Source: Chamaesiphon minutus PCC 6605 (GTDB taxonomy: Bacteria > Cyanobacteriota > Cyanobacteriia > Cyanobacteriales > Chamaesiphonaceae). From it: 64,000 nt of DNA. The position numbers were made by a program, and so were the translations under genes. Positions 43,566 through 56,173 of this stretch are shown here, piece by piece (the first letter of the stretch is position 1; every line of letters begins with the position of its first letter). The DNA lies in contig NC_019697.1 of the NCBI RefSeq assembly GCF_000317145.1, positions 1,054,001 to 1,118,000 on the forward strand, in the 5' to 3' direction. The notes beneath the pieces are model-generated. The model saw only the letters and a program-made list of their open reading frames with translations, had not been told where the DNA came from and did not search any database.

Positions 43566-43735
43566 CCTGTCTTGTCGCGCTGCTTGGTGCAACACATGCG
43601 GAGGAAACCTCCGCGTGGTTGCATCCGCTTTTTACGGCGGGAAACCCGCCGTTGGCGTTGGCGTAGCCTGCCGTAGGCACAGCCTCTGCGTCAGCAGATA
43701 CGCGCGCCGCTACGGCAGGCTTTTGCCAACGCCAA
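43566..43735. repeat. composite dispersed repeat with GGAAACC-type palindromes, copy 1
   Basis: Contains CCTGTCTTGTCGCGCTGCTT, GCGGAGGAAACCTCCGC, GGCGGGAAACCCGCC and the long GTTGGCGTTGGCGTAGCCTG palindromic part. Its right edge is where the paralogue fragment begins. Related blocks occur at 44096, 49525 and 55800. Confidence 0.65.
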
Positions 43736-43739
43736 CGAG

Positions 43740-43874
43740 CAAACTCATTTCGCAGTTACTTACCAACGTCGAGGTAGTAATGGTTATGGTCTACCTATAA
43801 TTCAAGAGACACCAAAGTTTACTTGTGTTGGCGGTATGCTCAAAGAAGTTGTACTTACCAAACTACAGAGCTAA
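43740..43874 (+). pseudogene. C-terminal fragment of a paralogue of the 43027 gene
   Basis: Reads THFAVTYQRRGSNGYGLP, then QETPKFTCVGGMLKEVVLT and KLQS before the stop. It resembles the last third of the preceding secreted protein (QFRVTYQHKQGINNF, then DRFVCIDGS). The N-terminal two thirds are replaced by the composite repeat, so no product is expected. Confidence 0.6.
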
Positions 43875-44943: not shown

Positions 44944-44989
44944 CCTTAACGAAGGCAGAAGACAGAATGTCAGGCTCTCTCCGCTAAAT

Positions 44990-45023
44990 AGTGTAAAATG
45001 GATCTGTCGCTACATTTTACACT
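44990..45023. terminator. convergent-gene hairpin
   Basis: AGTGTAAAATG (44990-45000) and CATTTTACACT (45013-45023) form a perfect 11-bp stem with a 12-base loop between the secreted-protein gene and the convergent small gene. It could terminate either. Confidence 0.55.
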
Positions 45024-45295
45024 CCTAAAAGCTGGTGATTTAACCCATTCAAAATACGATGGATGATGCGGTATCGATCGATTTTAAAGTCCATAAATTC
45101 AGTTGCTAACCACGATTTATATTTAAAAGCAAGCTGCTTGATAAAGGTTAGTTCCTCTATTTGTAACTCAACTAAAGATCGATAACGCCAGCCGCGCTCG
45201 TAAGTAGCAAGCTTTTGAGTATCAGTCAAGCAGTAAACATCTTTAATTTGCCAACCCAGAAATTCTAATAACGGTAGTTTTGGTAGAAAGCTCAT
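45017..45295 (-). CDS. hypothetical small protein
   Basis: From the ATG at 45295 a 92-residue basic, aromatic protein is encoded (SFLPKLPLLEFLGWQIKDVY, then ERGWRYRSLVELQIEELTF and FKIDRYRIIHRILNGL). A longer version starting near 45442 would run through two CRISPR-type repeats and is not credible. It may be cargo of the adjacent transposon relic or host DNA. No family is recognised. Confidence 0.45.
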   Translation of the reverse strand: MSFLPKLPLLEFLGWQIKDVYCLTDTQKLATYERGWRYRSLVELQIEELTFIKQLAFKYKSWLATEFMDFKIDRYRIIHRILNGLNHQLLGV

Positions 45296-45318: not shown

Positions 45319-45478
45319 GTCGCAACCATCTTTCTTCGTAAGGAGTGGTTGAAAGTGGGTATGCGATCGATAGGCGCAAAATCGACTTTCGTCGCAACCA
45401 TTCTTCTTTGTGAGGAGTGGTTGCAAGTGTCCGATCGAACAAATCAGTATAATCTTCTCAATCAGGAATAGTTGAAAG
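45319..45478 (+). CRISPR. mini CRISPR array with degenerate third repeat, V-K CAST-like
   Basis: Two 37-nt repeats (45319-45355 and 45391-45427) differ at five positions. They start GTCGCAACCAT, end GGTTG[A/C]AAG and are separated by a 35-nt spacer. This is the layout of cyanobacterial GTTGCAAC...GGGTTGAAAG repeats. A third, degenerate repeat ends AGGAATAGTTGAAAG at 45478, as in the delocalised repeats of type V-K CRISPR-associated transposons. No Cas12k, TniQ or TnsC gene is in the window, and no tracrRNA could be identified by eye. Confidence 0.65.
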
Positions 45479-45497
45479 GAGTCTCATCGCCCGCTTA
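45479..45497 (+). ncRNA. putative homing guide matching tRNA-Gly 3' end
   Basis: Directly after the degenerate repeat, GAGTCTCATCGCCCGCTTA is identical over 19 nt to the 3' end and first downstream bases of the tRNA-Gly(CCC) gene (45732-45750, minus strand). Type V-K CASTs are known to carry such a short delocalised guide for homing to tRNA genes. Confidence 0.7.
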
Positions 45498-45610
45498 AAC
45501 GCAGTGATAGCAGCATGTAATTCGATCGAAGCGAGGTGTAATAATACTAATTACCAGTTATCGACCGTCCGCACTATCCTAACTAAAATCAAGTCAATAA
45601 TTGGGACTTT

Positions 45611-45692
45611 GACACCAATCTGTTAATAATGACAATAATTAGTTAAATGGACACTAATCTGTTAACAGTGACAAATAATTAGTTAATGTACA
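45611..45692. mobile_element. Tn7-like/CAST transposon end with four TnsB-like sites
   Basis: Four copies of GACANNAATNNGTTAA (starts 45611, 45631, 45650, 45670) repeat at about 20-bp intervals. They end in TGTACA at 45687-45692. Read inward from TGTACA this gives the TTAAC...TGTC sites typical of CAST ends. The terminal base lies about 59 bp from the guide-matched site in the tRNA gene, within the 60-66 bp range reported for ShCAST insertion within a base or so. Confidence 0.75.
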
Positions 45693-45734
45693 TCTACAAA
45701 TATCGATGAAATGTACAGGTCGAATAACTACTAA

Positions 45735-45805
45735 GCGGGCGATGAGACTCGAACTCACGACGTTCACCATGGGAAGGTGACATTCTACCACTGAATTACA
45801 CCCGC
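45735..45805 (-). tRNA. tRNA-Gly(CCC)
   Basis: The 71-base sequence folds as a tRNA: acceptor arms GCGGGTG/CGCCCGC, a D-arm with TTCAGTGGTAGAA, anticodon stem TCACC/GGTGA around loop TTCCCAT (anticodon CCC), and T-arm GTGAGTTCGAGTCTCAT. CCA is not encoded. It is intact. Its 3' end is the apparent target of the adjacent homing guide, and the transposon end lies 43 bp downstream of it. Confidence 0.9.
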
Positions 45806-56018: not shown

Positions 56019-56173
56019 CTAAGCTTGCACGATAATTAGTTGCAGTATCCGATATACCGTCATGTGAGATGGTGGCTTGACATTCAATTCATCTGCTCTT
56101 GCTTCAACCCGATTGAATACCTGCTTACGCTGGAAATAGACACTTAAAAGGACAAATAATGAGTTAATGTACA
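56019..56173 (-). mobile_element. second CAST/Tn7-like end fused to a tnsB fragment
   Basis: The terminus TGTACA (56168-56173) and the TnsB-like site GACAAATAATGAGTTAA (56151-56167) match the end at 45670-45692 almost base for base. Immediately inside, on the minus strand, a 38-codon frame reads FQRKQVFNRVEARADELNVK, then PPSHMTVYRILQ, which resembles the N-terminal helical part of TnsB of type V-K elements. It ends at 56019. The rest of the element is gone. Confidence 0.7.

Follow-up and report, generated by a model that had tools for sequence, protein, structure and literature searches.

A very probable remnant, from the left-hand side, of a type V-K CRISPR-associated transposon at tRNA-Gly(CCC) in Chamaesiphon minutus, and a family whose targets are flanked by TTC

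The window analyzed here is the whole 64,000-nt stretch of the Chamaesiphon minutus PCC 6605 chromosome (NC_019697.1, positions 1,054,001 to 1,118,000). A short CRISPR array lies beside a tRNA-Gly(CCC) gene in this window, and between them are a sequence complementary to the 3' end of the tRNA gene and what appears to be one end of a CRISPR-associated transposon (CAST). The features, in window coordinates, are as follows.

45026..45283, minus strand: truncated 5' part (~90 aa) of a gene; abuts the array and forms the inner border of the remnant
45319..45355, plus strand: CRISPR repeat 1, 37 nt; 36/37 to the repeat of the G391 CAST
45356..45390, plus strand: array spacer, 35 nt, with no target found
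45391..45427, plus strand: CRISPR repeat 2, 37 nt, 3' end TTGCAAG; 33/37 to the G391 repeat
45464..45478, plus strand: truncated repeat (R*) ahead of the homing guide, AGGAATAGTTGAAAG
45479..45497, plus strand: homing (anchor) guide GAGTCTCATCGCCCGCTTA, 19-nt match
~45610..45692, plus strand: CAST left end with repeated putative TnsB sites, terminal AATGTACA
45693..45697, no strand: TCTAC, the 5-bp flank expected as target-site duplication
45696..45717, plus strand: remnant of an older CAST left end, ACAAATATCGATGAAATGTACA; 21/22 to the G387 left end
45732..45750, minus strand: protospacer in the 3' end of tRNA-Gly(CCC), 5' flank GAGTTC
45734..45805, minus strand: tRNA-Gly(CCC), pointing into the element (attachment site)
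56151..56173, plus strand: solo CAST terminal sequence, one mismatch to the 23-nt end, unlinked to the element

An earlier note, made from the letters of the DNA, had described two 37-nt repeats, a 35-nt spacer and a degenerate repeat at 45319-45497, and all of these are present there. The repeats are identical to each other at 32 of 37 positions, and 36 nt separate repeat 2 from R*. The reported 19-nt identity to the 3' end of tRNA-Gly(CCC) on the opposite strand is likewise real (19/19). The protospacer at 45732-45750 is the reverse complement of the guide, with 17 of the matched bases inside the tRNA gene and two past its end, and the two arms are separated by 234 nt. When the 405-nt flank was simulated 2000 times under a Markov-1 model, no match to tRNA-Gly(CCC) was longer than 12 nt, so chance does not account for the 19 nt observed. 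Nor is it a generic tRNA-derived repeat found at unrelated loci, since a search of the organism's own genome with the locus as query (four matches in all) returned no second copy of the guide region. Among the PLSDB matches listed (20 of 46), all were to the tRNA only. Rfam yielded no tracrRNA, and its one CRISPR-DR15 match was sub-threshold (18.6 versus 36 bits). The anticodon loop of the tRNA reads TTCCCAT in the window and TTCCCAA in three congeners.

The earlier note read the locus as a transposon relic, and that reading is supported, but it overlooked the left end of the transposon (~45610-45692). This segment, which lies between the guide and the tRNA, is made of repeats of a ~39-nt unit that presumably bind TnsB, and ends in AATGTACA, with a terminal TGTACA. 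Its last 43 nt match those of L116 and L068 at 42/43 and those of L087 and L115 at 41/43, and the terminal 23-mer has 0.00 expected occurrences in shuffles at up to three mismatches. The left end (45692) lies 58 nt from the protospacer, inside the 46-82 nt from left end to PAM that passages of PMC9938897 give for V-K CASTs, with one exception of 147. Neither a second copy of TCTAC nor a right end was found in the window.

As laid out in passages of PMC9938897, V-K CASTs have an inward-pointing tRNA, a left end, an anchor spacer of ~17 nt and a truncated repeat of ~12 nt; then come the 37-nt repeats of the array, the tracrRNA and cas12k (also PMC11406308). The window follows this order as far as the array. 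Its tRNA orientation, left end, short guide, repeats and spacing are as in AnCAST and the other cyanobacterial V-K CASTs covered by those passages of PMC9938897. By the same passages it departs from them in three ways: the guide match is 19 nt where 17 is usual, the target is flanked by TTC rather than GTN, and the left-hand ~380 nt are all of such an element that survives in the window.

When the locus was used as query against 40 related genomes, congeners with similar elements came to light. Of 388 genomes from the order, four carry the repeat family, all of them Chamaesiphon. The fullest member is a near-complete CAST in Chamaesiphon sp. 341R_metabat_111 (G391; JANXVE010000129.1, L116/L127). 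It has an open Cas12k frame of 620 aa, a tracrRNA match (2.2e-49) and three identical repeats, each 36/37 to window repeat 1. Its guide matches the adjacent tRNA-Gly(TCC) at 16/17, with the left end 63 nt away. TniQ (8.5e-11) and TnsC/TniB (2.9e-33) are encoded towards the far end of the contig, which breaks off short of a full tnsB and the right end. This element is like the window in its repeat (36/37), R*, left end (42/43) and TTC flank; it differs in keeping cas12k, tracrRNA, tniQ and tnsC, and in targeting tRNA-Gly(TCC). The comparison with known CAST repeats that the earlier note had proposed thus gives 36/37 to an array adjoining an intact cas12k frame. Against a first set of CAST repeats (from 30 of 40 loci plus the genome's own CAST), the best score was 24/37.

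A CAST at the same tRNA in a related genome, which the earlier note had suggested looking for, is found in G386 (L115): three intact family repeats and one decayed, a guide and a left end, all at tRNA-Gly(CCC). The contig ends inside the array, and hence cas12k is not seen. This copy shares with the window the tRNA, the position within it, the GTTC flank and the array family; its guide differs at three positions, as does its tRNA. R* reads AGGAATAGTTGAAAG in the window, AAGAATAGTTGAAAG / AGAATAGTTGAAAG in G391 and GGAGTAATTGAAAG in G386. Between the window and G386, tRNA-Gly(CCC) differs at 3 of 16 compared positions, and each guide equals the allele of its own host; relative to the window guide, the allele carries one change in G387, one in G390 and two in G391. 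The comparison thus shows that guide and target match exactly in two congeners whose tRNA alleles differ, and indicates that guides track these alleles between species. A search for the tRNA-Gly(CCC) guide pattern elsewhere in the family gave one match, in G387, with three mismatches and not credible; this is no evidence of absence, because the pattern carried an extra base and missed both known copies.

Could the 19-nt match instead be left from an integrase-type element, a prophage or island with its attachment site at the tRNA 3' end? The matched bases do include that 3' end, and tRNA 3' ends are frequent attachment sites. Here, however, the copy is inverted relative to the tRNA, with the end of a CRISPR repeat before it and a CAST end beside it. 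The same arrangement occurs with other tRNA parts in cas12k-bearing elements, and a near-complete relative exists in G391. We consider this origin barely conceivable.

The earlier note's main proposal, a V-K homing guide left behind after gene loss, is supported by the combination of R*, guide, left end and the G391 relative. Comparison among sequences establishes the layout, ends, repeat family, spacing, guide-target match and near-complete relative, and we are highly confident, on these grounds, that what survives at the locus is the left-hand part of a type V-K CAST, one that homed to tRNA-Gly(CCC) and is now dead. The locus itself is thus a new, dead member of the type V-K CASTs, and the TTC flank of its family makes it a likely new variant.

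The loss of Cas12k and transposase genes posited in the earlier note agrees with our searches, in which no cas12k, tniQ, tnsC or tracrRNA was found in the window. With 33 Cas12k queries, three of them the same own-genome frame, there was no credible cas12k (best E 0.17; nearest the array, 43660-43776, E 0.99). The G391 Cas12k matched the genome only at a locus at 4.40 Mb and gave nothing credible in the window, as did the G391 TniQ and TnsC (one match, E 0.73). A 123-aa frame from the end of the G391 contig, presumed to be part of tnsB, had no match in the window. A tracrRNA profile, built on 37 of 80 regions behind cas12k that were taken as tracrRNA regions, finds G391, G392 and G387 but nothing in the window; its reach is limited, because it also misses the genome's own divergent CAST. 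Given that no tracrRNA, cas12k, tniQ, tnsC or right end was found in the window, we regard the element as a remnant.

At its inner border, the truncated gene shows 84% nucleotide identity to L218 over 258 nt. In one congener the same gene forms a frame of 351 aa that includes an AbiEii nucleotidyl transferase domain (5e-17), and the part left in the window precedes the domain region. Frames of 323-351 aa represent this gene in four relatives, with the AbiEii domain in the one tested. An interspersed inverted-repeat sequence (44973-45023), with copies at C1:1009921 and C3:228520, adjoins the truncated gene.

These observations suggest the following course of events. Cas12k, with tracrRNA and a short crRNA made from the truncated repeat, would have bound the 3' end of tRNA-Gly(CCC), and TnsB/TnsC/TniQ would have placed the element so that its left end came to lie ~60 bp past the PAM and the tRNA gene stayed whole. 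Transposition by this route at this locus is what the arrangement implies. A later internal deletion, which we infer from the absence of these parts, would have taken the tracrRNA, cas12k, cargo, transposase genes and right end; without machinery and right end, the remnant would be immobile.

The remnant might have been retained for a role as antisense or regulatory RNA against tRNA-Gly(CCC), given that the guide remains perfectly complementary to the tRNA 3' end while repeat 2 has decayed. The window has no detectable tracrRNA, however, and a relic of recent origin would show a perfect match just as readily; we judge such a role improbable in the extreme.

Equally improbable, in our view, is that the locus is a miniature, non-autonomous CAST with two ends, moved in trans by machinery such as that of the divergent cas12k locus at 4.40 Mb (L049/L050; G000:C1 ~4403100-4406400, in the same genome). 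This locus, beside tRNA-Phe(GAA), has an open Cas12k frame of 726 aa, and the remnant does retain an end, a perfect guide and an array. The genome also has two more solo ends. But no correctly oriented partner end is present in the window, and the sole opposite-facing end lies 1.55 Mb away with a different flank (CCATG versus TCTAC). A truncated gene directly borders the array. At the resident cas12k locus the repeat is only 24/37 identical and the presumed terminal sequence is different, and its Cas12k is distant (33-38% to ShCas12k in two main segments). Finally, the only two TniQ matches of the genome are at 3.60 and 1.20 Mb, not beside cas12k. In addition to the solo terminal sequence at 56151..56173, one is found at G000:C1:2647724-2647746, away from tRNA-Gly(CCC) and the array.

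No TniQ was found near the 4.40-Mb cas12k locus. The two TniQ clusters (L237, L238; G000:C1:1191920-1196690 and 3599930-3605660) resemble Tn7-like transposons of other kinds, and frames in the first are broken; gene names besides TniQ in them are putative. We considered them as the machinery lost from the window and rejected this, as neither matches the G391 TnsC. One of the TniQs is 26% identical to that of G391, and the other has no match.

The earlier note had drawn attention to a GTT one base before the match as near the GTN-type PAM. The GTT is real, but the target flank is GAGTTC, which ends in TTC and does not satisfy a strict GTN PAM, and the same TTC flank is common to four family members and hence no near miss. 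To place this flank in context, we extracted guides from a set of 125 sequences, taken from these loci or from downstream of cas12k; up to 2 mismatches were accepted, or 3 if a tRNA was hit. Thirty-three had no guide, 34 repeated an earlier guide and flank, and 58 were distinct combinations: GTN in 53, TTC in 3, GCG in 1 and one wrong parse (G390, GAG). The GCG case is L087, beside a cas12k fragment. Parsed by hand, G390 has R* AAAATAGTTGAAAG, a guide matching tRNA-Thr(CGT) at 14/17, flank TGATTC and a left end 58 nt away; any other placement in the vicinity has at least six mismatches. Relaxing the search for the 33 guideless sequences, 8 of which have a tRNA in the stretch, gave three more guides in the usual orientation, all GTN (one already seen), and one inverted guide. 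The latter belongs to the 4.40-Mb locus, where the guide is found on the opposite strand from all the others (GGGAAGTGAAAG followed by GAGCAGAGGATTG..., flank GTA), with a presumed left end 60 nt away; it is the sole such case among the guide searches. Thus, the homing targets tallied here outside the family are all GTN, bar the one copy beside a cas12k fragment.

All four members of the family that were found (4/4) have a TTC-flanked target, and these targets represent three distinct tRNA sites, while in sampled tRNAs (3242 trinucleotides) TTC makes up 2.7% and GTN 9.1%. These data argue that the Cas12k of this family most likely reads TTC and not GTN. The host is not the reason, because other CASTs in the same genus have a GTA flank. 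Other Cas12 enzymes recognize T-rich motifs, to which TTC may be compared. One caveat here is that the inference draws on four loci and three target sites, with the G390 guide matching at only 14/17.

Alternatively, the family may use an ordinary GTN, with TTC arising from a one-base slip or guide decay. In the window and G386, GTT does lie exactly one base away. A one-base shift across the four loci, however, yields GTT, GTT, CTT and ATT, so that GTN fails at two of four and is not rescued. Also against it, G391 has an open cas12k and a 16/17 guide, and GTA flanks the targets of other CASTs in the genus. We regard this alternative as unlikely.

Among the best 80 of 152 Cas12k relatives in genome contigs, none apart from G391 itself is >49% identical to the G391 Cas12k, and the G391 lineage branches deep in the Cas12k tree, at a tentative position (support 0.58). 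Sequence comparison points to the likely existence of a TTC-reading Cas12k lineage. The fuller proposal, that a deep lineage (found only in Chamaesiphon, as far as searched) swapped the GTN PAM for TTC while its guide follows the tRNA allele, seems to us reasonably probable.

In the G391 Cas12k, R78, Y80 and E289, near-invariant elsewhere, are changed and R421 is kept; R78 we take to be a PAM contact. A structural explanation of TTC from these residues is weak, as 23 of 140 near-invariant columns differ in this protein; moreover, N78 is seen in an element with a GTG target, C80 goes with the inverted GTA guide, and GTN targets are found where E289 is changed. A passage from one paper names T287 and R421 as PAM contacts.

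Targets of the array spacers, sought as a second test of the PAM, gave no credible match. The window spacer has no match in plasmids and matches only itself in the 11 genomes. When 19-nt starts of six spacers (one window, two G391, three G386) were compared with viral contigs, five had no match; the single 19-nt match, of a G386 spacer, did not extend past 19 nt and was judged to be chance. Its flank is GTC, which gives no support for TTC.

In open-licence PubMed Central, no paper pairs 'Chamaesiphon' with 'Cas12k', and no Cas12k paper among the matches listed contains 'TTC PAM'. V-K homing guides have reportedly been studied chiefly in Saito 2021 and in Hsieh and Peters 2021. CASTs leave the target uncut when they insert DNA, and they are under development as editing tools; a natural TTC family, if true, would bring more sites within reach and show how a PAM change comes about in Cas12k.

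The earlier note's picture of a single relic also needs extending, as it overlooked the scrap of an older end at 45696-45717. These 22 nt match at 21/22 the left end of a CAST relic beside tRNA-Gly(CCC) in G387, and at 20/22 two further sequences, a scrap in G390 and, in G392, the left end next to tRNA-Gly(TCC). The G387 relic belongs to another CAST family, with its own guide, a GTA flank and a cas12k fragment. The match to the left end of another family thus indicates that the younger element inserted into the end of an older one. An earlier, different CAST had inserted at the same tRNA-Gly(CCC) before the window element, and the locus preserves traces of two different CASTs in succession at one tRNA gene. 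When the stretches beside tRNA-Gly(CCC) in G389 and at the second G391 locus were compared by eye, no CAST parts like the scrap were seen. In G300 (L068), a CAST has two tandem terminal TGTACA ends before its tRNA, 154 and 59 nt from the protospacer, in what is apparently another serial insertion.
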